64,000 nucleotides of DNA from Antedon mediterranea (lineage: Eukaryota; Echinodermata; Crinoidea; Comatulida; Antedonidae): contig NC_092672.1 of NCBI RefSeq assembly GCF_964355755.1, positions 27,524,501 to 27,588,500 of the forward strand, in the 5' to 3' direction. Position 1 is the stretch's first letter, and the number at the start of each line of letters is the position of its first letter. Under the pieces are notes generated by a model. That model was given only the letters and a program-made list of their open reading frames with translations. It had not been told where the DNA came from and made no database searches. Shown piece after piece: positions 4,101 to 56,992 of the stretch. Made by a program: the position numbers and the translations under genes.

Positions 4101-7100
4101 AGAAGAGAAAAAAACTTTGTGTTTTTAACAATAATTCTCTACTGGACTTTCTTAAAAACTCTCCAAATTTTACTTGCTTTTTTATTTTTACTTTACAGTA
4201 TCTACAAAGAATATTTAAAAAATATCAATGAATGTTTTTAGAATATCTCATTTGGTTGGATAAAGGGTTTAAATTATGCTGGGTAGATTAGATTTGCTTT
4301 CTTTACTTTTTTTCTTCCGTATAAAACTATTACGATAATTGTAAATAATAATGTAGGAAGAAGCTAGGCAAAATAAAATACTTATATATATATCGTGCCC
4401 AGTAGCCAGCCCCTGTTTTTATCTATCAGAGTTACACATAAAAAATACAATAAAATAACAAATAAAACATAATGTAGCACAATTAAAAACTCTGATAGCA
4501 TGCAAGATTAGGCAAAAAACGTTTCAAAGAAACATATTTTCAATGGGATCTTCATGCCTTAAAATTATTATGGGCACAAGAACTTAAGACTGACTGACCC
4601 CAACCAACCAATTTGATGTGTCCATATATGGACACGATGACATCATATTACTACCATATTTGGGCAAATCATATTTATCACAGTTTGATAGTGTAAATAG
4701 AGCTTTACATTTGAATCAGATAAACACAATGTCAATATTGATAGTTGTGTTGCTACTCACCAAATATCTTATCAATGGAAGCATTTGACGGTAGAGTGCA
4801 GTTGAATATGGAAAAGCAACGTTTAAGTCTCTCAGGAATATCATTTCTACCACCACCTGGCTGTATCATAGCTGCAATAAACTGGATATCAGCAATGTGT
4901 GTAAAATCTCCAGGCTTCTCCAGATTATAGAACCCGTCCATCTCCATCATTTGTCTCACAATCTCATTGGTCACTTGGTCTCCCCACTCGTTGATGATGG
5001 GCATGTTGATGTCATCTACAAAGACTGTCATCTTGCGTCCTGCAGGTGGACCATATGTGCTGCCCATTCGTTTGTCAACAAAACTCTCAATTGTTCTCTG
5101 GAATATCAAAATGTTAATTACACAATACTGAAAAAGACAATGACAATTCTACACGGAATATACATTGTCTAGTATGACTTACAACCAAAGTTGGTCATAA
5201 ATGCATTAGGTTTCTATTTTCTTAGTCTTTTAGTCTTTATATTTCATATGGCATTAAACATACCATTTAAGTTTCTCTCCTGTATACAATATTAAATTTA
5301 CAAACGGCAATGAAAGTTCCCTCATGATCTTAAAGGTTGGAAAGCAATGATTTACTATTTATCCAGTATAAATCAAACATGCTTATTTAATTATTATTGT
5401 AATGATATAGAATTATAATTAAAAGAATCAACCTTTGTATCACAATTCAATTGAGTTCACCAATTTGCCCCAGAAACGTCCAGTGAAGAAATTGACCAGA
5501 TGTCTTTCATGACCTGTTAGGCCCAATTAGTTCTCAAAAGAAAACATTTTATCTGACCTTATGAACTTTCCCATTGTAAAACTATTAAGATATTGACAGT
5601 ATTTAAGCACAGATTTGACAGACAATCCATCATTGTAATTTCCCCAGATACTAAAGATCATCCCCTCCAAAAAAGTACCTGCATCAACTTAGGACCAATA
5701 GTTAAGTTCAGAGATGATGTAATGACATATACTAATGAACAGAAGCCGATATACCCTCAAGTTTCAGAAAAGCCCAGACACACCTCAGACACTTCTTTGA
5801 GCACACACCTTACCGAGACTTCCTCAGAAGCACATCTACAGCCACACCTCACTTACAGCATCATTCATCCTTTGTCCCTGAGTTTGTATTATCCTGTATC
5901 ATTTCTGAATTTCTATTGTATTGTGTATTATATCGTATTACTGAATAAACAACTGTGATATTTCAATTAACCAAGCGAGTAGAGTCTTTAATACAGTCAA
6001 ACCCTCACACATTATATTACCATTATTATTTCAATATACCTGAAACATGAGTGGTGTAGTTGCAGAAGAGAAGTTGAAGCTTTTAGCCATGTGTCTATCC
6101 GGATCATACTTGCTCATGTAACCTTTAATCATGACAGTTTTTGCAGTTCCTTGTTCACCAATCAACAAAACAGCCTATTTAAAAATGGATATTATAATTA
6201 GCAAATGCTACATGAAAGGAATCTTAATCAAATAAAGAATGAGAACACTAAAACTTTATTTAATAATCTGTGTTTTAATCTTTGATCCGAAACATGAACA
6301 ATACATAAGCAGAGCAATATAGACATTATAAATGAATGACTCAATTTAGATGTCAACATTTTATTGGACACTACCACTTCCCTGGACACCAGACTGTTTC
6401 ATGAAGGAGACCAAATATAAATCTGTCATTCTTATTATTTATTTTTTATTATCATTTTTTTCTGCTTAAAACTATTATTATTTTGACTCCTAAACAACAT
6501 AAGTTTGTGATGATGCAAGATAATACAATTAACTTTGAAAATAGTTTTCAATTTTAAAACATGGTTTCATATAGATCTTGGTAGCATTTATGAAGAGGAG
6601 ATATCCCAAATTTAAAAGTAAAGTTAATTCTGACTTTCTCAAAAGAAATTCCAGAGGTCCAGCTAAAGATTTTGTAACAAACTGCATTTTTCTTTCAAAC
6701 AGGATCCACAATTGATTTCAATCATTATTAAGTATTTTGATATTAGGAATAAATACAAAAATAATGCAGCTTATAACAACATTTACCTTATCTTGTTTTG
6801 AAATTGTGTCAAGCAAAAAGTTTGAACAGACATTGTCTACATTTGGTACGAGAATTGAACTGTACTCTGGAACTGAATCAGCAGGATAGATGTATTCTTG
6901 AACTCTGTTTGACCAGTGCTCCCAGTTGCCTACAAAAATTTAACAATTCAATCCTTCATAATGTTAAAATAGTAGTACTGTTCTTTGTTTTCCACAGTGC
7001 AAAGTTATAGATTTACCTATGAAAAGTGGGAGGGGGGGCATCCCCTCATCTCAATATAGGGATCCCAGAAACAATTCTGATGATGTGCTAAACATCTAGT

Positions 7101-9722
7101 ATAAGGTTCAGTAAGCTACACTGTAGCTCTGTAAAGCTTGGTTCCCAATTGGATGAAATGTAAGTATGTAAACAAAGTACAGTTAGTTTGTCGTATCCGA
7201 AGTGACCAATCTAAAGTGAAAAATCCTCAACAGTCACTATTGATTGGTAAAATTACTTGTGTTGCATAGTACATTCTTGTGTTACAGGTATGTTCTTTTA
7301 AGCTCTGTCTACACTATCAAACTAGTTTGAAAAAAGTGTGATGTGCACACATATGGTAGTGATATTCCTAAATATGGTAGTGATAATGACATCATCATAT
7401 GGCCACATCCCATTTTGTCGTCGCATAAAATTTGATAGAAGTGTAGACAGAGCTTAAGGGACACAGATTAAGGAGTAGAGAAGCATACCCTAAACACACA
7501 CTTATAATAATGTACTGTAAAACATGTATGTAAAATAAATATCAACAACATAATTTAAGCTTACCGTTGCTGTCCACAACATATTCAAATATGGTGTGTC
7601 CACTTCCTTCAGGTAAATTTGGGTAAGATAGGTGACTTTCGTGTTCAAGCATAAATGTCTGCATCTTGGCTCTGTCATCCAGTTCCAGCAGGGCTCCAAG
7701 GCTCCACATCAATGAGAAGATAAACAGTTTTTCAAGATAGGCTGGAGGAAGTGCAGTGTGATCATGTTCTTCTTTCACAGGTAACAAACCAACTAGCAGA
7801 TCTATAGCCTAGAAATGATACAAACATGACATTTCTAATTATTTTTTTATTTTTATTTTTACAATTACAGGATGGATAAACTATTTAATACTTTTTTTTT
7901 TATTGAAGTTTTATAAAAATATCCTTTAAGTTCAAAATTAATCCGTTAAAATGAGAGGTGTAAAGCTTTCTCAATCACATTGTCATCATAGGAACATCTC
8001 ATTTAAATATTGTAGTGTCCAAGGTAGACACCCAATTTGTTGTGGTTTACAATTTGAATATTGTTTGTGGAAAAGTTTTTGTTGGATTTCAATTATAAAA
8101 ATATAACTAAGAAGAATCAATTTTGAAGTTCAATAAATCCTTATTATTAATTTTTGAAAAGTATCGATTTACCTCAAAATTAATGCTTTTATAAATCTGA
8201 ATATTTCTTTTTGTGAGAGACTATAATATTAATATCGTTATTTTAATGAATAAATTAAAAACAAGAAATCAATGTTATATAAAATCGCTTATTATACTAT
8301 TCTTTTTTTAGAACTCTTTTGATATTTTTATAATACACCAATTTACACTGTCAACATTTTGAAACTGTTAATCTAATTCTCTGTCTAGTGACTATTAAAC
8401 TTTATGTGACAACAAAAGTAGTGATGTGCCCATATGGACATGGGGATGTCATATCACCATATTTAAGCATATCACAACCATATTTGGGCACCACACTCTT
8501 TTTGTCAAACTAGTATAGACAGAGCTTAATATAAAATAGAAAGTTTCTGTACCTGTTTAATATAGTTGCACTGCAAGATGACCATCTTGGGGTGAAGTGA
8601 TAGTGTAACATAGTTGAACAAATCCTCAAAAATCTTATTAAACAGTTCTTGTAACACTGCAGCTTCTGATGGATTCTGCTTCATTAACCAGCTCTTAAGA
8701 CAGGGTACAGAAAGGAATTATTTAGTGCCATTTAAATGATATTATAAATAATTTAATAACAATCAACTGAATTCATTTTGTTTGTTTCCCTAATAATACA
8801 AATTTGTATTTTTTGTTTCTATTAATTTGTATAATTAGGGTTTAGTTTTATTGTTTCTAAAATCATTCATTTTTAGTAAATCACCAGATGGTTTAGTATT
8901 TCTCCTGTGCGCCTGTGAAAGGTTTTGTTTTTGTTCTACAAAAATAAAGATGGTATTACTATAATTATTACGTCCAACACTTTCCTTTGATTGCTTCATG
9001 CAACAAAAAACCTTATTAGGACATAATATAGATCACAATCAGATTTCTATTTCCATTTTAATCATGATTGACAGATAAAGTAGGTCATGGAAGTTTACAT
9101 GATCGCACCTAAAGATATACTTAATATAACAATATTCAATAATTACAAACAAATGACTAAAAATAACTGTACGAAAATAAAAAGTGCAATGAAATTTTAA
9201 ATATAATAATCAAATCCATAAGATATTGCATCCTTAGGCAATGTTTTACTCTCATTGCCTTGTCCTTCGGATGGGATGAAAAGCTGTTGGTCCCGTGTAT
9301 GTATATTGCATTTAAAAAAACTTGGTACACTATTCTAAAAGTAGGGGATAGTCTCCTGGTGTGCTGATCTGGTATGTGCTGCACTGCTGGCTTCCATGGG
9401 TCTGTAGAGGGCCTAAGTTTCCAGTTCAGTTTGAGCTGGAGGATAATATTATATATCTTCATCTTTTAAATAGAACTTACTTGTGATATAGGTCTCCAAT
9501 CCAGTACAGATGAACTCATGTACACCATTCCATTCCTAGACACTGTTGCTGGTGATGCATTATCAATGTTATGAACTTCAAAGACTACCTTACAATTAGG
9601 AGCCATTGGAATACGATCACCATTGGCTAGGGTCAGTGTCCTATTATCATCTAGTACACTGTTAAGATTCTCAATCCAAATAGCATCTACTGGGCCATCT
9701 AAAATTATCCAGATATGATCCG
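1159..9722 (-). CDS. DNAH8: Dynein AAA2 end, AAA3 and start of AAA4: exons 43-52 (residues about 2337-2989)
   Basis: Exon 43 completes AAA2 with [34 protein letters not shown] and [12 protein letters not shown]. Exon 47 has the AAA3 P-loop, GEQGTAKT (about 2599-2606). Exon 48 has [19 protein letters not shown] (Walker B type) and [17 protein letters not shown]. Exon 50 has [20 protein letters not shown]. Exon 51 has [15 protein letters not shown]. Exon 52 has the AAA4 P-loop, GVGGSGKQS (about 2962-2970), then [11 protein letters not shown] and ITLT. It ends in phase 2 at a normal GT donor, so the reading frame continues left of the window (stalk, AAA5, AAA6, C-terminal domain). Confidence 0.93.
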
Positions 9723-12700
9723 CTGTTGAAAGAAAAATAGTTTAAATGATAATGAATATTGTATAGCCTATTATCATCTAATAATACACTGTGAAGATTT
9801 TCAATCCAAATGGCTATATATGAGCCATCTAATTTTATCCAGATATGATCCGCTGTTTAACGAATAGGTTAAAGAAAATAAATAAACAAAAAACTAATGT
9901 TGATTTAGTTTGTATACCATGTTAAAATTTAAAATAAAGAGTTCAAAGAACTACATCAGGAAGTTTTATTCTTAACTTACAGATTGAGGAAACATGTCAT
10001 TCAATTTTCAAAGATTATTAAAAAGAATTGAATAAATTACAAATGGTTTGAGCAATCAGCGACAAAGCATTCTCTAAACTAGGCCTGGTATTATGGAATA
10101 AGAATGTACCTAATTCAACTGTTCCTTGATGTTCCCGGTATAGGCATTTTTTGGTCTAATATTTTTGTATAGTTATTCTTTAGTTATTTTTTTATGTAGT
10201 ACATTTCGATGTGAAGCACTTTGTCATTAAAGTTAAAAGAGCTATATAAATTACTATTACTAGACTAGGTCGTGTCCACAGATGGTTCTCGAATACACAT
10301 TAATTTCAGCGTAAAAAATGTATGTACCACAGGACTATAGTACATTGTCGTTTACAGAAACAAATAAATAGACAAGATGATTTATGTACAATTAGCACCC
10401 TGGGAGTTAGGCCTTGTCTTAAAAATAAGTCAATTTTTTTTATTTGAATTCATTTAAACAAACCCAATTTGTGTTTTGTATATATGCACAAATTTGATAC
10501 TGCAACAAAAAATGTGACATGACAACAAAAAATTGGAATTGTTCGTAATTCAATAAAGTCAATCTTATTTTGAATTTACATATCCCAACAAACATAATAC
10601 AAAACATAAAGATAGTCAAGTATCAACTTCCCGGGAAAATTGAGATCACAAGTTACTATGTTGGATGTATTATGTTCGTAACATGGTGTCATTTAGAAAA
10701 CTGCCTCTCCAAGGTGAGTACTTTTTTTTTCTTTATTTGATATCTGATACTTATACTTAATAGAAAGACAAAAAGACACACAAAAAAATTACATGTATTG
10801 CACACATTTATTATAATCCGTAAATTAGTTGACACCGTTACTCACACCATCCACAGTTCTACAACAATTTGCCTGAAACCCTGACAAAGAACATGAACAA
10901 AGAATGAGATGCCTACTTGCAATTAGCAAGTTCAAACCTCACTTTAAACATACCATATGGTTGTTTGTAAACACAGCATTGTATAATAAACACAAAATTC
11001 AATAGTTGATTATGTTGGTAACAAAGACACCAACAATTTTGACTGTTGATTCACGTCATCGCAGCTTTAAATTTGATATAAAGTTATTTGAAACTAACTT
11101 TTCTGAATTTAATCACAACTATTAATTTCATCAAATTTTTTTAAATTTATTTTTTGGAATTTTAACCGATCGTAACTATTAATCTCACCAAATTGTTTGA
11201 TATTAATTTCATAAAACTATTAAAATCATCAAATTAACTTGGGTACCGTATATTGCTATGTATAAATCGCACCTGTGTATAAGACGCACCCATAATTGTG
11301 AACGAAATATCTTGTACTTTTATGTCACCTGTGTATAAGACGCACATATATATATATCTAGGTCGAAATTTAAAGCATTTAACATGCTAACGATGGGCAG
11401 TGTGATCTCCGATATGTTGAGGTTAATTTGGAGATAACACTGCCCACCGTTAGCATGTTAAATGCTTTAAATTTCGACCTAGATATATGTGCGTCTTATA
11501 CACAGGTGACATCAAATTACAAGATATTTCGTTCACAATTTTGGGTGCGTCTTATACACAGGTGTGACTTATACACAGCAATATACGGTCTTAAAATTTC
11601 ATCAAACTACTGTATTTGAAATTGATTTTCTTGAACAACATTTCAATTTGTTTAAGCTCATCAAGAGAAAACTGGAATTGCTCTCTGGAATTCACCAGCA
11701 CTGGAGCGGATACAGAGCAGATAATGTCCCCTCTTGGTTGGGTTGAATAATCCTCATCTGATGGCCAAGTGTACAAATTATTCCCCTGTTTTTTCATGTA
11801 CTTGACAGTAATGAGACCACTTTCATTTGCGATGTGAACCACCTCTGCCATGTACACAGATGTAGTGTTGTTCTTTTTACCAACCGAATGCAATTGTACA
11901 GCTGCAAAGTTTCCAACTTGAAGATCCCTGCAAAATAATAATTCAAAATCAAGTCAAATATTAAATAAAAGCGTGCAAGAGTGTGTAAAGAGCCATTATC
12001 GCAAAAATTTAACAACGCAAATATTTCCACTTTTACAGTAATAAACAAATTATATGTACAGGTACAGTACATCTTTCATTTATTATCTTGATGATGTAAT
12101 GGCTGGACTGGTAATGGTGGGACATCAGACTCATCATCTAATGTAGTATGGGCAGATTTGCTGAAATAAAAATCAACCAAATAGTATATATGTTGTGTTC
12201 TCAGAGCTGCTCATTTGAATTTTATTAAGTGTTAACACAAAAGTACAATGCTTACATCTTTTCACTATTCATATAAGTTTGTGCGGACTGGTCAGAATCT
12301 GTGGAGATTGGCAAGACTGTAGTCTCATTGATTGACTACTGTGTGGGTTCACTGCTATGCTTATAAAGTGATGTTCTGAAAAATATAACAATTATTGAAT
12401 ATTATATAGTACTACAGTGTTTTTGTTTTCTTCTTAGTTCTCAGAAAATTGTTTCATGAATAAATAAGGGGTCCTTAACAATTATCAAACAGTATGTTTA
12501 GGGAGGGAATAACTTTGTGGATGTTAATTCAAATCATCAATGTACTTTGCAAAAGTTGAAATTAGACATTTTCATGATCAATGAGTATGAACTTCATACT
12601 CATTGATCATGAAAATGTAACCCATGGATAAAACAGACTTTGAATGTATCAAGTCAACAACAAAAAACAATGTTTATAATTGTGAAGGACCACTACTCTT

Positions 12701-15700
12701 TTTATACTACAGTACATACCTTTCAATTTTCCCTCTTTTAAGCGACATCAAAGAGAGTTGACCAGTGAACTTGATGTTTGGACATGGTTGGCTTGATATA
12801 CCTCTACAAGTGTCGCAGAAACAGCTCCTTTCCTTTGTTCCGATAACATGGTTAAATACCACTAAAGCTGTGAGAGCTGCGTGCATTTGGGATAGGACGG
12901 ATATTTGTAGTTCTTTCTCTGTCAGTCAGTTCAGAAACTAAACTGTTTACAGTTTCCACCTTCTCCTTTATAACGACGTGTTTAGCCTGAGTTTGAGTGC
13001 CGTTCTTATTTGTCTTTGTGTAAGCTTCGCTGACCCATACTTTCCACTTTATGGGGTCATCCCCTGAGCTTGCAGAAGAGGCTGTAGGTGCTTTGAAACA
13101 ACATCAACACAACATTTGTCGCATGTGCAGTCTATACACTCCTTTTTGAGGAACATTCCTGGGGCCTCGCATACTGTTATGGATGAGGCTTCGTACTTGT
13201 TTTTCGAAGCAACATGTTTGTTAGCAATGCACTTGGCATATAAGGATTCTACCTTAAATGTTACATTTGTCGAATTCGATTGGGAACTTTTGTTGTCAAG
13301 GTAAAGATTCGTTGAGTACTTTTTGTATTCGAATTGTAAATTTGTGCTCAACAGAAAGTCATTTGAATAGAAAACGTTGACAACGAAAGCTTTTTCATTA
13401 AGAACAATCTCAACGCTCAAAATACTCCGTTAAAGAAGTACTCAACGGAAAAACTACTCAACGGTCCACTCGAATACGACAATTGATACAATACTCACAC
13501 AGGCATTGCAAAAGTCTTTGAAACCGGTTTATAGTTTGCTAGCTTGACTGTGGAGAACTTGGTAAAACTAAGTGAGACAGTTGGATATGCAGCTTTAAAT
13601 TCATTGTAGGCCGTCTTCATTGTGCATTCCATCACCTTGCCTGGTGTCTTGTCTACAGCGGAAGGTGCATCTGGCAATTCTCTTGCAATCCACCCGATCA
13701 TAAAATGACAGAACTTTAGACACTGTGTCCTGGCTCAGAGCATAACTCCTTTGCTTTCTAAACTTTATCGAATGTGAATTGATTGGCTTGATCAAAAAAC
13801 TCCAACTCAGTCCTAGATGCTTTCGGACAAGTGTTTTTCCTATTTTGTTTTTGACACACACGGCCATAAACAGTTGACGCCTGAGTTGAATTTTTTTTTC
13901 AGGGCAGCTCGCGTCCTTGATTTTTCTACCATGCTCGAAAATATTTCTGCAAACTTATTTGGGCTCTTCGGCACCACTCTCCATGATCTTGATAAAGCCT
14001 TCCTTTTAGCTTTATTACTTGGAAAGGGGGTTGATGTTGGTGTCGACGACTATGTACAAGAGCTCTGCTTGTTTAAGGCATATGCCTCCCGTCGCTTCTC
14101 TAATATGCGCCGCTTTTTTTGGCTTGATTGATTTGCCCTCCTGCTACGTTGGTAATCCCTCCACTTCTGTTGTTTCTCACTGGTCTCCTTTCGAGTCTCT
14201 ATTGGAGGTGTTGTATTGATACCAGCATCTTTTTTCCGCTGTCTCATCCTCTGCATCCTGATCTTTGCTTTTGCGTTGTCTCTTATTTCGGTCTCCTTCC
14301 GAGTCTTCATTGGAGGTGTTGTATTGATATCAGCATCTTTTTTCCGCTGTCTCATCCTCTGCATCCTGATCTTTGCTTTTGCATTGTCTCTTACTCTTAC
14401 TTCGGTCTCCTTTCGAGTCTCCATTGGAGGTGTTGTATTGATACCAGCATCTTTTTTCCGCTGTCTCATCCTCTGCATCCTGATCTTTGCTTTTGCGTTG
14501 TCTCTTACTCTTACTTCATCACTTCGCTCTAATCTTCTTATCTTTAAGCGGGAACATTCAAATTTCCGAAATTCTGCATATTTTTGTGGATTTTCTTTTA
14601 AGTTTTTAAGGTGCAACCTCTGTGCTTTAGCATTCTTCGTCTTTTTTGATTCCCAAGGGACATCATCCAGATCAAGTTTATCACCTTTTTCAGTACAGCA
14701 ACGAAGCTTCATTCTGAGTATTAAAAAATAGTAATTCAATAAATATACGGTATGACTATACATTTCCTGACATAAATATATATACATTATCTTTTTAATA
14801 AATAAACTGTGACTGTGAAAGTCTTATAATTGTATTATATGTTGATCAACACACTTTAGGATACGTGTTATTGGCAAAGGACAGCATGTATGAATTTAAT
14901 TTTATGTTCGTAACAGGTGACACCATTGACAGTCAGAACTACGTAATATAATACAACTTCACAGGAAATTATATTTATTTAAAATACAAAATCAACATGA
15001 TGATGTTAAATTAAATTTCTTATTGTTAAAACAACTAAGATGGATGTGTAGAAAGCGATGACCTCGAATTGGACGACCCGGGCGCTTTTTTTTTTCGTAC
15101 ATAAGTTGGGGACCCCTCATGAAACGTCACAAAATAAACATGAATAATTCATCAGTTAAATTTGTTGTTCCGTGTGCACCCAGCGTATAGCAACAAGAAG
15201 TGATTACACAACTGCGGTTCTTTCTACAGTAGGCCTAGGATTGTAGGTCAATTCACGTGACTGCCTTCGCGCACACTTCTTCACACACACGTCCACTATG
15301 CAAAATGTGTCGAGGCTAATCGACAGCTAGGCAAGACATTAAACTAAGTAGTAATTGGACATAGCCCAAAGAAAGTTAAGACCCACAAGAATAAAGAATG
15401 TGTATAATTTGTGTACTGTAATTTTTTAATTCTGCTATTTTATTATCAAACAATATGCATGTACTCAAAGGAACTTTAAAAATGCGCATATTTATGAACA
15501 CATGAGATGGGAAGATTAGACCCACGAGAATAAAAAATGTATTTTTGTGTATATGTTTATTGTTTAATTTTGCTGACTTATTACTCGGACTGTGTCATAC
15601 CTAACACCAAAGAACTTATAACACAAGAATCTCCTGTTCGTCCGAAGCGCGTAACAATTTTGAAAGGCATTGTGGGATAGAATAGAGCTATGGGTGGCGC

Positions 15701-18700
15701 CATTGTGAGCCATGGACTAGGGCGCCCGCATCAAATTAGAAAGTCAAAATCATAGAGGGGATCTGCTAATGCTCTAGGGGGGGTAGAGTAATTGACTGAG
15801 GAGTAGGGCGCCCGCATCAAATTAGAAAGTCAAAATCATAGAGGGGATCTGCTAATACTCTAGGGGGGTAGAGTAATTGACTTCCTAGTTTGGAGGGGGC
15901 GCTGCTCCATGCTGTGAAATGGTGTCGCCCAGTTTGACCTTTTAACACTGTACTTCCGATACTGTTTGAATGCAAATTGAACAGGAGATTCTTGTGTTAT
16001 AAGTTCTTTGCTAACACACAGGTCACACACACCCACACAGCTACTACTAGAATAGACATGGGTTTAGAGACTAATAATTAGGCCTAATAGTATCAATAGA
16101 AACAAACTATAATTTTAACACGTATTTATAGTAATAAATTATATTAAAAACACCATAAACTAAAGGCTGATTATTTCGACAATCCACACAAAACGCCGCT
16201 ATTCTATTATGAAATCGCACGCGGCAACCACAGCGGAGATAGGCCTAGAATCGTACCGCACTTGTGTAATCACTTCTTGTTGCTATACGCTTGGGTGCAC
16301 ATACGAAACAAGAAAATTTAACTGATGAATTATTCATGTTTATTTTGTGACGTTTCATGAGGGGGGTCCCCAACTTATGTATGAAAAAAAAAATCGTGAC
16401 CCGGGCGACCTCGAATTGGACGACCTTGAATTGGACAACCCATAACACGAAACCGACGACGGGTGTCACGAAACCTAAGACCACGAAAGCTCAGACTCCC
16501 TAAGACCACGAAAGCTAAGACCCAACACCTAAGATTACAAATACTAAGATATACTACAGCTTAAAAACAATACTTGTTTATCCATACATAACTTTAAACA
16601 CAGTAGGTTTCATTTATTACCATAACTATAATTTAATACTACCGCAAAACATTATTTTCGCCCGTTGAGTAAATGTATATTTTTTCTTTACAACAAACAA
16701 ACTTGACGGGTTGTTTGTTGGTATATATTTACTCCATTGTGTTGGTTCAGAGGATGTTTTTCTTACGCACCTGCCTTTCTTGTATTTTGACTCCAAATTT
16801 GTTGACTAACTTTATCCTGAACACCACACTTTAAAATTAGGACTTATAAGTACTTTCAGAAGGAGAAACACATAATAACAAATAAATAAATCCTTTAAAT
16901 TGATGATTTTACAGATGTGTTTCTTTGTATACTGTAATGTAACTCCTCGAGCTCCCACCATGCTCAATGTTTTTGTTTCTATGGAGCGCCAAAAGAGCAA
17001 CAATAATAGTACAAGCATAAAAACAGAAAGAAAACGAAACAAAAAAACTTATCATGATTTTTAAATTAAAATTTATTTGCCAGTATTTATTTCTTCGTAC
17101 TTGCATGATTATACTATTATCATTACAATTTTAATTTTACATTGTTCCATCCACACTGTAGATGGACTCCACAGAGTTTTCAGCCCTCTATATAATTTTT
17201 GCTCTTTTGACGTTCCATAGAAACAAAAACATTGAACATGGGGTAGGCCTACTGTAGTACTGTAGGCTAGTCATTTTGTGTGCGAGAAAAACGTCTGTAA
17301 AATCATCAATTTAAAAATGTATTTGTTACTTTTTATGTGATTCTTTTTTATGAAAGTGCCAATTCTAAGGTGTGGTATTCAGAATAAATGTTGGGAGTTA
17401 AAATCATGGAGTAAAGAATACAAGGCAGGTGCGAAAGATAAATATTTGTAATCTTAGGTTAGGTGTTGGGTCTTAGCTTTCGTGATCTTAGGTCTTAGGG
17501 GGTCTTCGCTTTCGTGGTCTTAGGTTTCGTGACACCCAACCGACGACTCCTATAGCCTAGCCTAGGCCTAGCTAGTGTGGTATAACATCCCGAAGGAATG
17601 TTTGTTTACACCCAGCCCAGCCAGGGCAGGGAACTCTAAAAAACCATGGAAAAACACTAGGCCTAGGCCTAAGTAAATTACGATTTTAACATAAACTTCT
17701 ACCATTAAGTAAAAAACCAAAGGTTATTAGTGTTCATAGATACTTATATTACAATAATAATTGAAAACATACCTTGATTATGTTCCAATGTGATAGGATA
17801 TTTGATGATAAAGTATGATGAAATATGATGTGCGTAACACCGCGCAAAAAAAGTTGACACGAAAGGTGTTATCGCCTGTAGCAGTGACATTTGACCTGTA
17901 TCCAGACGTTTTATTGTGTATATTAGTTGTACTGCTGGGACTTCCTTATCAGCGACCAGCGATGACAGACTAGCGCTCTGCACATGTGGTGTGGGCCTGT
18001 CAAATCTTCCAAATGACGTTCGTAACAGACTTGAAACGACACACGTAAACATGTTTTGAATTGTTTTTTTTTACTGATATAAATAGCCATACAAAATTAT
18101 TAAACTTGCCAATGTTTTAGTTAGATAAGATATAAATTACAAATAATTCGTTGATTGAATAAACCTGTGTATTACTCGCAAGCTAGCCCCATATGATGTT
18201 CGTAACATTTCTTGACACGATATTATGTTACGAACGTAAGCCTGTGTTTACCATTCGAATCAAATTACATAATTGCTATTTTTTCACATTCTCTAAAACG
18301 ATCTCATAGAGCAACACGTAATGCATAATGCACACACAAAAAACACATAAATATTATCATTGGTGACCTCTGAAAACATAATTTAGTTTTAGAAGATTTT
18401 TATGTCAAAATGTGGTGTCTATTTTTGGTACATATTAAATTACATTTATTAAGTTCAGAAAAAAATTCCGCTGAGGTTTCATTCGTATAATTACCTATAT
18501 CAACAACTTACATGATCGTAAAATATATGTACATTTAAATACATATAAGACTAATTAGCAACATGTTTTAAAGAAATATATAAACGCCGTGGTTAGGATT
18601 CCGGCACCGGAACTCAACTGCCCAGCGTTAGGGAATCCGACACGCTATTGCGCATGCCCAGAGCGAGGTAATCGGCGACTCTATACCACCTATCAACAAC

Positions 18701-42700: not shown

Positions 42701-45700
42701 ATGCTGTGAAAATAGGTTTCAATGTTAAGAGATGTCCAAGTAAGAACGGCAAGGCCTGGTTGCATGATCAAGTCTACTTTCTTTAAATGTGGGGCCATGA
42801 CGGCTTGAAATATGGTTGGAATTTTAGCACGTAAAGAGTCATTCTCTTCCTTGAGCGTCTACAAGTAAAATATAATTTTTTTTATTAAAATATTGTACCA
42901 TCAATAATTATTAATCTATATATAAATTTACGTAAGGGCAAAATTCGGTAAATCTCGGTTTATTTCTAGAATTTTTACTCGATGGTATATAAAGTTGGTT
43001 CATACTTTCGGTACTGATTTTAACCATCTGATGTAACCCTGTTTACTAATTAAATTGAGTTAGGTAATTAGTTATTAACGATTAAAACGAATTTAGGTTC
43101 AACGATTTGCCCCAAATAGGGGTGTTTTCCGATCGTGGTATACACTGTCTAATGGATGTCCATCTTGAAAAATACCCGCCACAAAAATACGAGGAGGCTT
43201 CGCATTTTCCTATCTCCTCCTACGATGATTGTTTTTAATAGCTGAAAACTGGTTGAACAGCTAGAGTACAGCATCATAATGTTGAAGACAGGCCGATTTT
43301 CTTAAAAAAATACTATTTTGATAGATTTAATATACGATTATACAAATGTATTGATTTGCGATGAATGGAACATTCCAATCTCTGTTTCACAAGTGTCTAT
43401 TCCCTCAGGCGTCGTAAAGGCAAGTACAGTACTGTATACTCGAAATTCGATCCATTTTTGTTTTCAATCTGTGCTGCAGAGGTTGGATATAATTTTTTTT
43501 AAACGGATAATGAGCTAGCGTTTTCACTCGCCGTATATTATGTACAAATCTTTATTATTGCATTTAAACCACCCACATCATCACCTTTCCCTCACTGGCA
43601 TGAGTAGCGTTGTAAAACCAGTAGAGAATAGGCCTACGGTACATCACATGCCCTAAACGCAGAACAACTTTGGTGGGTAGGGTAGGAACCAACTTAAGTA
43701 TGAATTGGCTCTAAGAAACAATTGAAAACCATTAGGCCTACTAATTAAGTTGAGTTAATAGATAATTTAATATTTATTGACGATTAAATCGAATTTATGA
43801 TTTTCCCCGAATAGAGGTGGTTTTCACAAATTGTTTTACATTATATTATAAACATATAGGCCTACACGTAGTAGTGATGTATCGTTACATGTGCTGTACT
43901 ATTTCAATCGACTAGGACGGTGATAGTTTCAACAAAGTATTACATCGCAATGTTTTACTGTGTTTAGTGGTATATTATTTGTAAAACATGAAAGCAATTA
44001 ATATTTCGTTACTAAATGGATAAAGAATATATTTTAACATTGTTCCTCTTTGCACCCATCCTCTTCCCCATTCCTCAACCCTAATGTTACATACAAAACA
44101 CAAATTAAGTTTGTTTAAATTTGACTTAAACAATTGGTCTTATTTTGTGACAAGTTTCTCTTTCGGAAGTAATAGGGTGCTAATTTTAGTTGAGTACATA
44201 AATCACAGTGTCTATTTATTCGTTCCTTTAAACGACATGTATTATTGTCCTGCGGTACGTACATTTGAAATCGCCAGTTTTTTAACGCTGAAATTATTAT
44301 GTATTCGAGAACCATCTGTGGGCACGACCTAGATGGTACGCGAGCGAAGCGAGCGTACCATCTAGTAAACAACAATTCATATTAATAGGGAAAACTAGAT
44401 TTGTTTCCAGCGCACTACTGTACATAATCAAAAACATTGTCATTTTAACATGATTTAAACCCTAATCTGGAATTTGTTTATGAAACTTCTTCTGTAATTG
44501 CTCTATATACCTCCAAATAATTATTATATTACATTTACACATCTGTTACGGAACAAGACAAGGAGGCCCAGAAAATCGGGAAGACCATCTATCACCATAT
44601 TTACTGTGCAGAATCTAATGCATGTTGCACCATGATTTCCTCCATGGTCGCACATACTACAGTAAGTATTTAAGTAAGTAGTAGTTATGCCCCATTCAAA
44701 TACCCTAGGCTGGGCCTAAACCAAACAAAATAGGCAAAACCTCTTCATCCCTGCCTTTGACAAAACCTGTCTGGTGTAGGCCTACAGCAGCAACATGCTT
44801 GTTTGGAATATTTCTATACCTTTAATGTCTCACAGTTCTTTCTGAGTTTTTCTTGCGACAGACAGAGTACATTAGCGGCAGTTGGCACTTCTAAATCAAG
44901 CTTTCGCATGCATTCTGCTTCTCTGATCACTTGCAGAAGCATCGGATCAAAGTTCACAAGAAGTACGTTCGTTTCTGGATGTCTTACTAACAGAGATGCC
45001 TGTAACCCTAAGAAATTAAATATATATTTCACTATACTGATGTTGAGTAGGAAATAAAGGTCATTGATCGTTGATTGACAATTCAATTCTCATGCTCACT
45101 ATTTGTTTTAACATACCTAATAGAGTAATGTTTTATATAATAGGGAGTTTTCGCAACCTTACGAATACGATAACGAAAACGGATACGTCACACATTTGTG
45201 ACACTTTTGAGCTGATCCCCATTTCATATTCGTAAGGCGTATTCGTGTTGACGAATATCACCAGTCATATTCGTAACTACAAAACGAGTATAGTTTTTGA
45301 TCTATTTTGCAAATTTTGCATTTGAATCAGGAATGATTCATGATTATAATATAATTATACTTTTAGTGAAAGTAATTTACTAAAAGTAATTTACTAAAAT
45401 GCCAGGTCAATTTTGATAAATAGCAGTTTTTAAAGTCCTTACTCGCTTTGGTGTTACCATGGAGGTATACCTCCATGGTGTTACGCTAGGCCTAGGCAGC
45501 CAAGCACCAAAGCAACACGTACCTGCGCTTCGCTCAAATTTACCGCAGTCATATTTTGGACGGCGCCCTCAATATTTCGTTGCCATGCAAAACAAATTTT
45601 TACTGGCTTACGAAAAACGAATACGTGTGCGTATCCGTTTTCGTATTCGTAAGATTGCGAAAACCTAATTAAGCAGTTTCTATCTTGAATTCTAAAAAAC

Positions 45701-48700
45701 CTATGCCCTGTAAAAGTTTGAAAGTCAGATATTGGCCGTGCAAACAGATCAATAATAATAAATGGCGCACTCTACAAGTGATTTTTTCGGTCGATTGTCA
45801 ATCTTAGAAGAAAATAATACATGACACAATGATAGAAAATCTATCAAATGGCAAGGATATTAAATGTGTTATAAAGTGTAATAATGCTACATAAGTCTGA
45901 TACCTATCTTGACGACATCAACTTGTTTCACCCATGCTCTATGATACAGTAACTCAAACTCCATCAGAACAGATGCCATTCTATTGTAGTTGCGAATAAT
46001 GCGTTTAGCCTCAGGAGTCTTCATAACATTTGCTTCAGTCTATAACAAAATAATGTTTACTAATGCTATTCTACAACAAGAAATACATTTCTTTACAAAG
46101 CTAACTATTTATGATATAAAGAGCAGGATCATGATGATTGACAGTAATAATAATAATAATAATAATAATAATGTTGTCTAGGGTAACTTTTGTATAGATA
46201 TTTTGTACTTTTTAATCTTCACGTTGTTTTTAATGTTGTAATTTTGTATTTTATTGTTGGATGATTATATTTTGCTTTGGAGACCCACTTGATAGTTTGA
46301 TTTAGTTCGCTTTTGGGAATCCTGTCTCTCTCTATTGTTTGTTATTTTTTGTTATAATTATGTGAGACAAAATAAATGAAATGAAATCATAATTTCATTT
46401 TCATCATAGATCTTTTCAACAAGAAATCTGCATGATAAAAGATTCTTTTTGTTTGATCATAAAAGCATTTTAATCTATCAAAATGGTAGACCTCTACAAA
46501 AACCTTGTTAAGTTATCATATTCTTAAATGATTTAAATATAGAATAAATAAAATAAAACCACAATTCTTGATATGCTTTCTCCAGTATGTAACAAAACAC
46601 ACCTTCTTTCATTCCCTGATATGGAGCATGAATCTAGCTTTAACATTGTAATTCTTACTTTGATAACATCCATTGGTTGCTGTATTCTTCTGAAGAGTTG
46701 TCTAGCCCATGAGATCTTGCCTGAAACAGGTGGCATATCTCTTGGCACAAGAGGATCTTCTTTGTTCTTTTGATACAGCTAACATAAAAGAATGTAATAT
46801 AAAGTAAATAAGTTTAGATAATTCTAAAGTGTCCTGTATTCATTCAAAACATAGGGGAATTAGCTGTTGGAGGTAGGTCTCTTGAATTTGAATTGGTTGT
46901 TGTTTTTTTGGCAGTTGGTGAGGATTGATCTGATTGGTTGAGCATTCAATTATTTCCCTGTTTACCATTCAAAATCTCTTCCTGAATGCTACCAATGATC
47001 TTAGCATTCACACTACCATTCAACATATCTCCCTGAATGCTACCAATGTTCTTAGCATTCACACTACCATTCAAAATATCTCCCTGAATGCTACCAATTT
47101 TCTTAGCATTCACAATACCATTCAGAATATCTCCCTGAATGCTCAGTACCAATGATCTTGGCATTCACACTATCATTCAAAATCTCTTCCTGAATGCTAC
47201 CAATGATCTTAGCATTCACACTACCGTTCAAAATATCTCCCTCAATGCTACCAATGAACTTAGCATTCACACTACCATTCAGAATATCTCCCTGAATGCT
47301 ACCAATGATCTTGGCATTCACACTACCATTCAAAATCTCTTCCTGAATGCTACCAATGATCTTAGCATTCACACTACCATTCAAAATATCTCCCTGAATG
47401 CTACCAATGAACTTAGCATTCACACTACCATTCGGGATAGCTTCTGAATGCTTATTGACTCTTGTAAAATTTTCTTAGCATTCCGATTAAGTGGTTTTAA
47501 CCATGAATGCCTAAATTCTAAAAATTACCTGTAAATTAGCATTTGAATGCCTAGTGAATGGTTAGCGAAGGCTATTTAAGCATTCTCCTTTGGTAAGGGA
47601 ACTATACCTAGCCTCAGCATTATGTGGTGTGACCGGTTTCTTTCCACCACATTATTCTTATAGGCAATTGAACCCCAATCTTTCTACACCCAGCTACCAC
47701 CACAATTAAGCTACTACCTATTTTGCATTATGTATATATGCAAACCTACAGAGGATGATTAGGGAGCTTCTGATTTGAGACGAACGATGACTGACGACCA
47801 AACCATGCATATTATTTCATTATGTGCATCCAGTGTTTCCTTATTTCCTACACCCTGAAACCTACTATACCTTGCGTATTGTCTCAAGTTCAGTTCCAAA
47901 ATGATGCAGAATCACTGCATACTTTGCCTCAATGTTAAGATGTGGAATATTCAGTCTCTCAAATCTGGAATAAAACCCCAACAAAAATTGTATTGTAACG
48001 GTTTGTCCATAGGATAGACACAACACTAAAAACTGCATGATTCAATGATGTTTAAATGCTCCTTGCAATGTCCAATAAGAGTACACAATAAATAATGATT
48101 TATTGCCTACCTAAGGAGGAGATATTTCAACATTTTAGGTAATTCAGTCAAGTAATACTAATCTAGATCTGTTATTATGGAGGTTGAATTGCTGGACTGC
48201 TTCCCATGTGGGTTTCTTCCTTCTTATGTTACCCATAACCCACCAATCATGCAGTAGCCTCCTAAGAGGACTGTTCCATAAATAAGGAAAGGGGTGTCAA
48301 AGTCTTACTTAGGGGTATCAAATTTTACTACAGTATAGTAATCAATATTTAGTATTTTCAATTCAAGACACATATTTAGGGAGAGAATTAATGACTTAAA
48401 ATGTATTCCATGCTGTCTAAAATTTATTGAGAGAATTTTAGGTTTCATAATCATCCCACACCTTCACAGTTTGGAAGGCAGGGAGGACAAGAACCCCTAC
48501 AATTAGTTAACTAAGAATTGAGCAGTTGCTGGTTTAGAAGGTCGGCTACTAATCCCAGAGTCCTGAGTTCAAATCCTGTCAGTGTTTTTTCTCATAAAAG
48601 AACAAACTACAAGAAAGGTAATAAGACTTTGTGTAGAGCATATATTGTATATTTGTCCTTGTGATAATTTAAGGGGGAGGCCGCTAAATTATCCACTAGC

Positions 48701-51700
48701 CTTAACTAGCCCTATGTACCTATTTGGCAGAAAACCTTTCTCCAAATTGTCATTAAAAAAAAGTATATGAAAATAGATGGAACAACAGCAGTTAAACATT
48801 GAACAATTTTTCACTTACCGTCTGAGTAGTACAAGAGCCTGCACAGATGAGGTTATTTTGCTGAAACAACTGTCCAAGAAGCCTTGAAGCATGTACTGTG
48901 GTAAAAAAGATATTTATTGTATTATTAACTGTCCTCAGTTTAATTGGATGAGACCATGGTTAAAAATCCAATGAATATGTACGGACATCATTGTACACAG
49001 TTAAACACTGTATCTTAATGCACTGTTAACTATTCTTTAAAACCAAAAGGTTGCATTGTATGAATTGTGAAACAAGAGATTTCGTCATTTTTCCCAATAA
49101 TTTCATTCAAGTTCATGAATAAAACGCTACTAACCTCTAGATCATAAATAGACTTCTTGAACTCATCATAATCCACGTCAAAGTCAATTTTTCGATGGTC
49201 CAATATTTCATAAGGCTTCTTCTTAATGTTGGAGTAAATGACTTGGAACTTGTTTGCAATTGGATCAATGCCTTCAATACTTGTTGTGGCCAATACAGAG
49301 AACACTTCAATTGTATTGACTACGTCTATAATCTAGAATTAAAGTATACTTTTATAATATGTAAATCAACTATCCTTTCTGATAAAATTCTATAGTTCCT
49401 ATAGTTTGTGCTTATTAAACAATACTTTTTCTCGCCCTAGCAAAATGGAATATGAAAGTAAGATTTATAGAAAACCACTTATGTATTAAAAATATGTAAA
49501 AATATTCAATCCTTCCCATCATAATCTTTGACTAATTTTCAATAGAAAGTGTTTTACTGCAAAAAAGAACTTAGATTAAAAAAGAAAATTAGAATTGAAA
49601 ATCAATAAATCATTCTATCAATCAATCAATAAATCATTCTATCAATCAATCCTGTAACAGTGTAAATCATTCAATAAATAATTCTATCAATCAATCCCTA
49701 TAAATCAATATATAAATCAATCTATCAATCAATCCCTATAAATCAATCAATGCATCATTCCATCAATTAATCCCTGTGAATCATTCAATAAATCTTTCTA
49801 TCAATCAATCTTGTAAAAGTGCAAATCAATCAATAAATTATTCTATTAATCAATCCCTATAAATCAATCAATAAATCATTCTATCAATCCAATCCCTGTA
49901 AATCAATCAATAAATCATTCAATCAATAAATGAATTTATCTAATGTAATAATATGAAAATGATATACCTTCTCGCATCTCTTGCAGAATGCTTCAAATTT
50001 ACCAAATATGTACATTTCGGAGAACTCAAATGGACGTTCCCCTGGAATTTCATCAATCCTTTTCTTGGTTCTATGAAAGCTTTTCTGATACTCTTTGTAC
50101 AGCTGTATGGAAGCCTCAAGCTTGGCAATAAGTGGACCACAGCTTTGATCCCAAATACGGTCCATTCCATTATTTGTAATGAAATTCTTACAGGCTGTTA
50201 CCATTTGGTTGGTGACCTATAGGTAGTAAATAAGTAATAAAGAATGTTTGGTACAAAAAATATAATATTGTGACCTTAAGAGTGATTAAATCAACCATTT
50301 AGTACACTCAAATGTATTACTGGGTTCAAATAACTGTCTCACAGAGACATCTGGTAGCTAAGCCATTGACTTAATTCATGTTAAGAGGTGTCCCCTGATC
50401 TTAAAACATATATTGCCCCTCTTTCTTTTCACAGAAAAGTTTCTCCTTAACAGGTCCCCTGAATAATAGGTTTCCTCTCGAAGGAGGGGTTCCACTGTAC
50501 TTCAAAAAACAAATATATCCAAGATTGGAAGTTTATCACAGTGTATAATTCATATACATTTTTATTATATTGTAAAATTGTATTGTACAATAATTGTAAA
50601 AAACAGAGAAGGCAAAAGAGAAATGTAATTGAGTACACGATAAATAAATGAACTTAAATTTTACCTTAATGAATAAGGATGTCATTCTCTCTGATGTATT
50701 GTAATACTGTGAAATACTGTGTATCATTCGTATAGCATTGATGAGGCTGGGAATACATTCAACCATGCCAATCTGAAAATAGTTAGTCAGCTCTGTCTAC
50801 ACTATCAAACTTTGTGTGACAAAAAAATGTGATGTGCCCATATATGGACATGATGATGTCATATCACTACCATATTTGGTCACATCACACTTTTTTTGTC
50901 AAACTAATTTGATAGTGTAGACATAGCTTTACGTTTAGTATGTAGAACTGAATTGAATTGACATCACTGAGGCTTGGATGAGTACCACAAGTTACATTAC
51001 ATACAGTATGTTTATGAGGTGACTGAGGTGCAGACCTGTAGCAAATATCATATAATATTAATACAAGACATGTGAATTTGAATTGACATCTTAGATATGA
51101 GACAATGGAAGCAAAGATTGCATAGCTTTTCTATACAGACCTTTGAAGGCAGGGTGTTAGCAGTTGAAGAAACACACTATATGAGTGAGTGGCCGAGCGG
51201 TTAAGACAGTGAAACCGTAATTACCTAGCCATAACAACGGCAGGGGTTCGAGGCTCACTCACTCCATGGTTCTGGTGGTAGAACGATTCTTCTTGGATAA
51301 GGACTATAAACCGTAGGTCCAGTGTACACATCTGGCTCGTGTGCACTTTAAAGAACCTAGTACATCTTTCGAGACGAGTAGGGGGTTACCCCGGTATATT
51401 AGTACATCACAGCCACTGATCACCAACTGGGCCCTCTGGGAGACCAGTCATTGACTGAAGAGGTTACCCAGTATAAATATATATTTCAATCAATACAGAG
51501 TAATACAAAAAAGTTACACAATAAAAGGTGGCCTACATACTGGATTTGCATGATAAAGTGGCTCACAGAACTTCTCCAATGTATATAGAAACTTCACATT
51601 GTCTTTGGCTTCATTGGCGGAATCTGTAACACGACAGTCAAGTTCCTTCCATATCTATAAATAGAATTTAAAGTAATTGACAAAAATGTTACTACTGTAC

Positions 51701-54700
51701 CTGCTCAATAAGTGCAAATTAAGGTTGGTAGTTCACACTGCTGAATGTGAACAGACAAACTCTGAAACAAACTACAACTGTAAAAAGTTCAACAGTGATT
51801 TTTGCAATCAATCATAGCAAATATGTCAGAATGAACATCCCCTCTCAATAAAAAAAATGAAACAGCTCAGACAAAAATTGTGATTCTCACAAAATAGACT
51901 TTACTCAATGCTGCTGTGCCTTATACTATAGTCAAGACCAGACATAATGGTGGTACAGGTTTAAGATTCCGTCAACCATAGTTCTAGTGGCAAAACAAGT
52001 CTGGTTTATATGCATTTAAAGAAACAAGTACATCTTTCGCTGTAGGATTAGGATTACCTGTGCTTTTGTTCACTTTAAGACACTAAAATCTCTGTGTTGG
52101 GCTAAAAACCCAACCATGTTGGATCACAAGAGTGGCCCCATGTGTCCCAATTGCAGGAAAAGGATCGGAACATAACTGTACCTTAAGGACCTTGCTCTTA
52201 GCAGCATTCAAAGTACTGATGACCATCTTGCAGTGTTTACTCTTGATCTGGTCCATGATGGAATTGAAACGTGCCATCAACAAGCGCCAATGCTCTAGTT
52301 CAGCTAAAGGACCAGTATCATCAGCTTCTTTTCTCATCTGTTCACTTTCAGTTAAAACCTAAATTATAAAATTTAAGCTTTGTCTACACTATCAAACTTT
52401 ATGTGACAAAAAATGTGATGTGCCCATAAGGACAAGATGCATGATGCCATCACTACCATATTTAAGCATATCACTATAATAGATTGGATGAAATTGATCA
52501 TATTTCACAGAAAGGTAAGAGAGTAAGAGAATGTTGATATAAAGTTTGCGGTACACCACGTATATTAGTTCTGAAAAAAACTATCAATCAATATCGTCCT
52601 CAGGCTCAGGAGTAAGAGAAAATATATGTATACAGTTCTACTATGTGTACATACTACTGTGTAAATAGCAAAACTTTATATATAAACAAAAATAAAAACA
52701 CACCTAAGCTTTGGGGAAATGTGGAAAATTATGACACCAGTTTGGCTGCCATTGGATCCAAGATGGCAGATCATTTTCAATTCTATTTTAAAATCATTTT
52801 GATACTAGCATGGATGTGTTCAAGTAACAAACAAACAATAATCAAACAAACTCTTTTAATATCTTTTTGCTGGAAAGAATTTTGTTTATTTAATTTATAA
52901 GTAAAACAAAAATAATGACCTGTTCAATCTCTTTACACCAATGGTGTACAAGGTCTTCTAAGATTGCCACAGAATCAGGATTGGCAGCAGCTGATAAGCA
53001 ATCTCCAGGTGTAGCAAGACTAGTGACATCAAACCCATCACAACCATGCAGCTTCACTGCACCAGAAATGCTGGTTTTGGCTCCTGGAATAAAATAGGTA
53101 CTGTGTAAAAAGGCACACTTATTAAATGGATAATTGATTAGGTTTATCTTATAACAAATGATGTTATATCCATGTTACAATTATCATAATAATTCCCATA
53201 TTGTGAAACAAAAAAAATGTTACATACTTGAGAACTTTATTGAATCAATCAATTAACATATAACAATAGTAATAATATAGTACAATGATGACTTTCGTAA
53301 AAAACATAATAATGAAAATACTATATATAATATTATATGTCCAATATTGGCTACATTAATTATTAATAATGATTAATATTTCTGTTAGTGTTAGTTTCTA
53401 TAAGTTACTTACTTCTACTAATTTACAAAAAATTGTTAATAAATGATGTCTCGTTGAAAGAGCAATGACACAGGTTGGTTGTTTAGTTAAAAAAGAGAAT
53501 TCAACAAATTTGTAATCATATCACTCACCATTAATAAAGTCAATAAATGTATCAAAAGAATCAAGAAAATTCTGTCTTGTCTTTTTGCCAATAGGTGTTT
53601 CTGAAAGAGCTCCCCAATCATCAAGAGCATGTGCTGCCGGGTTATGCACTTTCATGAGTAGTTGCTGGATAGCAGGAAGAACAGTCAGAGTACCTGCATT
53701 GGCACAGCTGAAGTTGCCAAAGTTTACCATCTATTAGAATAATAAACAAGAAAAGAAGTTTAACAATGAGGTTCTTAGAATTGGAAATGTTGACTGATTT
53801 AATAACACTTTCTTGTCTTTTTGTAAGCCTGTTGTATTATCAGTTTAAAAAACATTTAAAGACATGTTATTTTTACCAATGTTATGAGAATATGTGAAGC
53901 GCCACTGATTATGAGCTTTACATAGATATGGCTGCTATCTAAATGTTAATGTTTTAGTTTTATTCATTCCCTGAATGTATATTTATTTAAGAGGTTCCTT
54001 GAATATCAACTGGCATTTTTATTTTGAAATTCAAAAAGAAAAAAATTAATAAATGAAAACAAACTGAACAATCATTGAATAAAATAAATGGATGTGCAAT
54101 GTACCTGCATGAAGACATTGTACATTATGTGTTAAGATCTGGTGTAGTAGGATTTTCATTACAGTAACAACAACAAACATTAAAAAAAAATAATTTAAAG
54201 AAAATTGTCCCAACCTCATGAACATTTCTAGGATTAATGGCACTGGCCACATCAGACTTGATAAAGTATAGACATCTGCCTGTAAGAGCTTCACAGGTGC
54301 CATCAGTCACGATAATACCTTGCATCTTGGTTCCTTTAGGAAGACCAAGGCTTCTCCCAGAGTCTAAACAAAATATAGTTAATCATCATTTAACTAATTC
54401 TGCACAACCCGTCTGACTTTCCCACTAACTACAATCGTCAAACAGTTTGCACCAAAGTTTACAAAAATAACTGTATAAAGTATAATTGGCAATGGAATAG
54501 AATTCATGAGTTGGTTTCATTCAAATATGTTCAGCAAGAAAATCACTTTTTTCTAGGTGGTCAGTATTTGGGAGATTCCACTGTAGATTATTATTTCATT
54601 TCCATGGTTTTATTCTAGCATAGGAATAAGAGTCAATTGAGGTCTGTCTCTGTCTCTTTCTATTCATCACTTTAAAAATCTTCCACATTATGTCAAACAA

Positions 54701-55740: not shown

Positions 55741-56167
55741 TTTAAAAGTTTTCTGCTGTGGGTAAAATAATATCATTTTTCTTAAAACCCTGGGCTAGCC
55801 TAGGCTAGCTAGGCCTGCTTATTATTAATTAGGGGCAATAGGCTGGAAAAAAACTAAATACGCCCACAGGCCCCAATTGTCATTGTTGACTTGTTGAATG
55901 TTGGTGCATTACTAGGCTAGCCTAGCATAGGCCTACCTAGGCTAATTATTAATATTATTTATTTATTGCCATCATCATCAAGTTGACGGGTTGATTAAAT
56001 ACATACAGTGACCCTAACGTGTATTTATTCCTTTCTAGGCCTAACCTAGGCCTAACTAAGGCTTATTTAGCCTAGACCTCTAGGTACTAAAATAAATGTT
56101 CTATATTTTAGGCCTAGCCTAGTACTGGGCTGATGGTGGGCAAAGAGAGGGCCGGAGGCTAGACAGG

Positions 56168-56264: not shown

Positions 56265-56846
56265 GTAAGTCAATAAATAAAAATGAAATTTACTATTATT
56301 ATTATTTACTATTAATTCAAATAATATTTGTACATACCTAGATAATATAGTGAGCTTTAATTAAGATAAAAAAGCATGTTTTTCCAACATTAAAATAAGG
56401 GCTGTGCTAGCCTAGATCAAGCAGCGCGCAGACGACTGCAAAATCAAATTCATTTTTTGCCCCTTAATCTCTCTACATGATACGCGCACAACAACCAACC
56501 AGACACGTCTATAAAAAACTTCTAACCAATCAACAACCGGTTACAATTAATGCGCCCTCTATGTTGAGTAAAATCAAAGATGGTAAAATTACGCACCATT
56601 TGTTAAAAAACCTCCTTGCGTGAAATCCTTCCGATCTAAAAAAACATAGTCCTATAGACATAAAATAAATCGGAACATAATGTCAATGTTACATTTCTTT
56701 ATTATGTAAAATGTTAAATAAATAAATGTCTAAAACACATACCGGCTTTTAAAAGATAATTTGATATATGAAATTTTGAATTTAGCACTGAAACAATGCA
56801 TACTGTAATTATGAACTCGAAATAAAGTCAACTCAATAAACTATGT

Positions 56847-56992
56847 CTACACTATCAAACTAGTTTGACAAAAAAGTGCGATGTGGCCTAATTATTATGG
56901 TAAAGATATGCCCAAATATGGTGTAGTGATGACATCATTATGTCCATATACAATGTTGTCACATAAAGTTTGATAAGTGTAGACACAGAGCT
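56847..56992. mobile_element. TTAA MITE copy 11, intergenic
   Basis: CTATGTCTACACTATCAAAC at the left; right end TTTGATAAGTGTAGACACAGAGC. The only copy outside an intron. Confidence 0.8.

Follow-up and report, generated by a model that had tools for sequence, protein, structure and literature searches.

A foldback MITE family found in excess just downstream of exons in the dynein heavy chain genes of Antedon mediterranea

On the current view, introners originate from MITE-like elements that prefer linker DNA and chance to be spliceable. Whether a MITE that gathers beside exons is making introns, is directed to the edges of existing ones, or is close to exons by chance is a question posed here by a 64,000-nucleotide stretch (the window; C3:27524501-27588500), for which a preliminary description had listed ten copies of a TTAA MITE in dynein introns, most of them on the donor side and closer to an exon than random placement would suggest.

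Ten MITE copies in the introns of one dynein gene

MITE copies were located by nhmmer profile search and exons were placed by phmmer and Pfam searches against dynein structures, with exon ends refined to GT/AG with compatible homology. Eleven copies were found in the window, ten of them in the introns of an axonemal dynein heavy chain gene on the minus strand (Table 1). This gene carries the Pfam domains DHC_N1, DHC_N2, AAA_6 and AAA_7, and its exons also match solved dyneins one by one. The ten intronic copies were recovered as first described, with every gap to the nearest exon within 5 bp of the earlier figure, and 8 of the 10 lie no further than 75 bp from an exon, the nearest exon edge being a donor for eight copies and an acceptor for two. 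The donor bias is seen in internal introns from one end of the gene to the other, and the MITE makes up a minor part of most host introns. A branch-point-like GACTAAC stretch lies between copy 9 and the AG.

Table 1. The host gene and the eleven MITE copies of the window, with gaps to the nearest exon from this analysis and from the preliminary description
Feature	Position	Strand	Nearest exon edge	Gap (bp)	Earlier gap (bp)	Remark
Axonemal dynein heavy chain gene, DNAH5/DNAH8 type	1000..55800	-				N-terminus to ~AAA4; at least 44 exons placed
MITE copy 1	4603..4706	+	donor at 4761	52	57	5'-truncated
MITE copy 2	7299..7456	-	donor at 7565	108	111	
MITE copy 3	8377..8528	+	donor at 8553	23	27	
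MITE copy 4	30258..30371	-	donor at 30392	20	18	partial
MITE copy 5	32177..32336	-	donor at 32368	30	33	
MITE copy 6	33938..34079	+	donor at 34121	39	43	
MITE copy 7 (w7)	34897..35050	+	donor at 35124	71	75	intron of the C7 paralog has its own MITE
MITE copy 8	42296..42439	+	donor at 42661	220	224	
MITE copy 9	50788..50930	+	acceptor at 50772	14	17	
MITE copy 10	52375..52475	+	acceptor at 52358	15	18	partial
MITE copy 11	56838..56990	-				outside the placed dynein exons, between the dynein gene and an SLC6-type gene

Several other features were observed in the window. Partial copies of the neighbouring dynein exons e35, e34 and e30 (9767-9856, 23647-23724 and 28516-28575; 70-81% protein identity) are possibly exon duplications or mutually exclusive exons. 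About 14 kb inside the gene (9742-23781) holds no placed dynein exons and contains long ORFs without a Pfam match (for example 14053-14823 and 13052-13429 on the minus strand), and this stretch is perhaps a nested gene, a set of undetected exons or a source of unknown repeat proteins. Two diverged 5S rRNA-like stretches (25081-25191 and 36878-36986, with 55.6 and 43 bits, above the Rfam gathering threshold) and a weaker one near 27455 are probably copies of a 5S-derived SINE. Two near-identical repeats of ~1 kb (16499-17537 and 58391-59436), with inverted ends of CCTAAGACCACGAAAGCT motifs, are a mobile element separate from the MITE.

The MITE itself is a non-autonomous foldback element with a consensus of ~144 bp, a near-complete imperfect palindrome with the TIRs AGCTCTGTCTACACTATCAAACT, AAGCTCTGTCTACACTATCAAACT / AGTTTGATAGTGTAGACAGAGCTT and AGCTCTGTCTACACTATC, which matches its own reverse strand at up to 85% and folds as RNA at -75 kcal/mol (z -13.8); the top genomic copies align on either strand over their full length. 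It is short, has TIRs and a high copy number and lacks coding capacity, as MITEs generally do. Its 26-base end has 2847 exact matches across the 354-Mb assembly (18 contigs, ~11 of them large), some of them in satellite arrays. Two arrays derived from the MITE end were observed, one at C1:410700-412600 (a 42-bp unit repeated 38.8 times, 98% uniform) and one at C1:1406400-1408000 (a 92-bp unit with at least 17 repeats, 98% uniform). The dynein loci hold 43 copies in 244 kb, or one per 5.7 kb, from which a total of tens of thousands of copies can be extrapolated; with 11 copies in 64 kb the window matches this background and shows no concentration of the family in this particular gene.

The ends of the MITE read TWAAGCTC and GAGCTTWA and its flank is TWA. 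The description of a strict TTAA element could not be upheld: TTAA stands at about half of the ends, ends in TAAAGC and TTAAGC are about equally common, and TTAA is found on both sides in 5 of 52 copies. A 3-bp TSD is not proven by these end statistics, since of 23 informative copies just 13 have the same W in TWA at both ends and 10 do not. The flanks prefer T/C + TWA and the outer context of the insertions leans to the palindrome TC-TWA-GA, a target which we take to resemble that of Tourist (PIF/Harbinger) elements. A candidate autonomous element at C1:16622200-16627850 was rejected, as its 5.4-kb TIR pair proved to be three separate MITEs without a transposase-sized ORF.

Distribution of the copies around 5' splice sites

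Two null models were applied to the dynein introns. The first took each element out of its intron and re-placed it at that intron's TWA sites: 3.5 of the 10 window copies were expected within 75 bp of an exon where 8 were observed (p=0.004), in agreement with the earlier impression of non-random placement. The same null applied to the paralogs (n=16 copies with both flanks known) gave no general edge excess, with 13 copies no further than 75 bp from an exon where 12.7 were expected, but a donor-ward shift (p=0.05) and 2 copies within 45 bp of an acceptor against 5.7 expected; its power is low because it conditions on the host introns, many of them short. For the second null, all introns lying between neighbouring detected exons were pooled (135 dynein introns with 21 insertions, a small sample from one gene family). 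Here the MITE sits far above expectation in the first ~100 bp after an exon, directly past the 5' splice site, with 15.8 insertions per 1000 TWA sites at 0-50 bp from the donor, 8.9 at 50-100 bp, 2.6 at 100-200 bp, 1.7 at 200-400 bp and 1.3 beyond 400 bp, a drop of about tenfold from the first 50 bp to distances above 200 bp. Within 0-50 bp of donors, 4 of 10 insertions were found in the window gene against 0.65 expected (p=0.003) and 5 of 11 in the independent paralogs against 1.3 expected (p=0.006), giving 9 against 2.0 for both together (p=6e-5). Restricting the pool to introns of up to 1 kb left a weaker excess that still stands (all copies p=0.01, paralogs p=0.04).

The excess was one-sided. 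Within 50 bp of acceptors in the pooled introns there was no peak (2 insertions against 1.9 expected), and within 100 bp a weak one (6 against 3.65, p=0.24). The concentration at exon edges proposed in the preliminary description, together with its suggested insertion preference near splice sites, is supported for donors and not for acceptors or for exon edges in general. Selection on intron structure, which it had also raised, is plausible as a second factor, because acceptor-proximal copies (to 45-50 bp from the acceptor) are at or below expectation. Coverage by other repeats, pooled, lacked the donor gradient, being flat within 400 bp of donors (0.13, 0.11, 0.10 and 0.10) and reaching 0.37 deep in long introns, the opposite of the MITE.

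Genome-wide, a strong donor motif (AGGTRAGT) followed by an inward-facing MITE end at a set distance was counted in equal 31-bp bins without annotation. The counts rest on a single donor motif, MITE word and control word. By gap from exon to element there were 65 at 16-46 bp, 47 at 47-77 bp, 38 at 94-124 bp, 22 at 174-204 bp and 25 at 414-444 bp, and the donor motif in the wrong orientation, which estimates chance, gave 13 in the 16-46 bp bin. Near and far counts over equal total bin width were 112 and 47 (p=3e-7). The fine histogram showed a broad plateau from 16 to ~70-75 bp and not one fixed distance, and among the spacers of the nearest bin that were printed in full all sequences are distinct apart from one identical pair, which makes them separate insertion events. 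An AT-rich, TTAA-containing control word, TTAATTAG, gave 17 near and 34 far, or 16 and 21 once tandem and repeat copies had been collapsed by eye, without a near excess; the MITE, at 64:22 near to far, differed from it (Fisher p=0.002). Intron length cannot explain the near excess genome-wide, as 77% of dynein introns are longer than 190 bp; a uniform model expects ~53 at 174-204 bp, where 22 were observed. As far as these donor-motif counts reach, being a partial test made without annotation, the distances are not those of random TTAA sites.

Host introns, donor insertions and possible causes of the bias

The distribution suggests that a DNA transposon can land preferentially at exon-intron boundaries while creating no introns itself. 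As an explanation of the whole we prefer, at a probability of roughly 0.5, an insertion preference for the chromatin just 3' of exons combined with purging at acceptors. The transposition machinery would prefer accessible DNA, such as the linker on the 3' side of nucleosomes positioned over exons. The corresponding sites upstream of exons would be hit too, and selection on the branch point and polypyrimidine tract would remove part of these insertions, leaving the one-sided pattern. A pure linker bias should give an acceptor peak at ~50-100 bp, where just the weak one described above was seen.

Transcription-linked targeting, in which single-stranded or R-loop DNA, or factors just downstream of 5' splice sites, attract the transposase, is the main live rival, and we consider it unlikely. 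It would fit a bias that is one-sided, tied to the orientation of the donor (65 against 13) and present in internal introns throughout the gene; against it, R-loops are not known to be confined to the 100 bp after each exon. Random insertion followed by deletion of deep-intron copies, with donor-adjacent copies kept since deletions there would reach the exon, accords with the sparseness of the MITE deep in long introns (1.3 per 1000 TWA sites), yet copies on the acceptor side should be protected equally and form no peak, and how far a copy has diverged is unrelated to how far it lies from the exon (Spearman -0.01, n=26), so that we think such a bias of survival quite improbable. Poorer odds attach to chance combined with short introns, whereby any 144-bp insert in an intron of a few hundred bases falls near an exon and one lucky gene was noticed: the paralog copies re-placed in their own introns behave in this way (13 against 12.7 within 75 bp), but the roughly tenfold rate per TWA site close to donors, in window and paralogs alike, and the genome-wide near excess that the control word lacks have already largely refuted it. 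We give less credence again to the idea that TC-TWA-GA palindromes are simply commoner after donors, as GTAAGT contains TAA; the flank preference for T/C + TWA and two copies inside a donor speak for it, while TWA density was controlled in both dynein nulls, the distances spread broadly from 16 to ~75 bp and the TTAA-containing control word shows no excess.

These two insertions into the donor itself were found in dynein paralogs, one at a site common to the duplicates C1a and C1b and one in C10. At the C1a/C1b site, the clearest of the target sites, the exon ends ...ATAAG and is followed by GTAAAG(TIR)...GAGCTTAAGTGATAA, which reads as an insertion into a donor AAG, then GTAAGTGATAA, with TAA duplicated; the left TAA and the first bases of the MITE read as a new putative GTAAAG donor. 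While this site reads as a TAA duplication, the W agreement across the family is 13:10. The C10 site reads GATAAG, then GTAAAGCTCTGTC. Insertions of this kind may be tolerated because the flanking TAA and the first MITE bases would rebuild a donor (G-TAA-AGCT), and they show how a donor can be overwritten and still, perhaps, remain in use. The AGGTAAAGCTCTGTC... sites number 27, a count from which no excess of direct donor hits is claimed. C1a and C1b are two dynein heavy chain genes at C1 2.60 Mb and 2.21 Mb, 95-98% identical including their introns; they are a recent duplication, with several MITE insertions in common.

A link to intron gain had been put forward for the window copies. Intron positions were compared for nine of the ten window host introns, all except that of copy 10 (w10). 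For eight of the ten, the C8 paralog has a MITE-free intron at nearly the same residue (a few amino acids off, and up to 10 at one site); the w7 intron is shared with C7, whose intron carries its own MITE copy. The C1a/C1b intron with the donor insertion likewise has a MITE-free counterpart in C10, with the donor AAG, then GTAAAC. As the tested host introns predate the MITE, it is not an introner, and the proposal that it created its host introns and carries or recruits their splice sites, to which two copies supplying part of a donor lend some colour, is very nearly dismissed by these MITE-free or shared introns and by the internal position of the MITE as a minor part of most window host introns.

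Comparison with known systems

No MITE with such a donor bias was found in the open-licence literature. Tourist-like MITEs (PIF/Harbinger) resemble this one in being short and foldback, with TIRs, TWA at both ends and a palindromic target preference; they differ in that the W agrees in 13 of 23 informative copies here and no transposase partner, which for an autonomous PIF/Harbinger element would be of the DDE_Tnp_4 type, was found at the one TIR pair examined. MITEs of the piggyBac type share the TTAA that stands at about half of the ends, and with TTAA on both sides in 5 of 52 copies the family falls outside that class.

The DNA transposons mPing, P element and Hermes have a 5'-gene or open-chromatin bias. 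Like them, this MITE inserts non-randomly in a manner tied to gene architecture; unlike them, its bias falls on internal 5' splice sites throughout the gene body and not on promoters. Somewhat tentatively, an animal DNA transposon family may sense exon-intron architecture, favouring the first ~100 bp of introns along whole gene bodies and sometimes rebuilding the donor it hits, in which case its tens of thousands of copies would chart germline chromatin at 5' splice sites by where they inserted. Thousands of copies provide a natural dataset for whether exon-positioned nucleosomes steer transposition.

Introner insertions are reported to tend toward nucleosome linkers, in 104 of the 132 genomes where prediction was possible (PMC9860276). 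The introners of Micromonas, Aureococcus and dinoflagellates (PMC9860276) are likewise MITE-like DNA elements with a bias relative to exon-intron architecture, and in both a donor is now and then recruited by way of the flank. They differ in that this MITE inserts into existing introns, the tested ones being older than the element, and does not span an intron from GT to AG. An insertion bias within pre-existing introns, free of introner behaviour, separates targeting from splicing.
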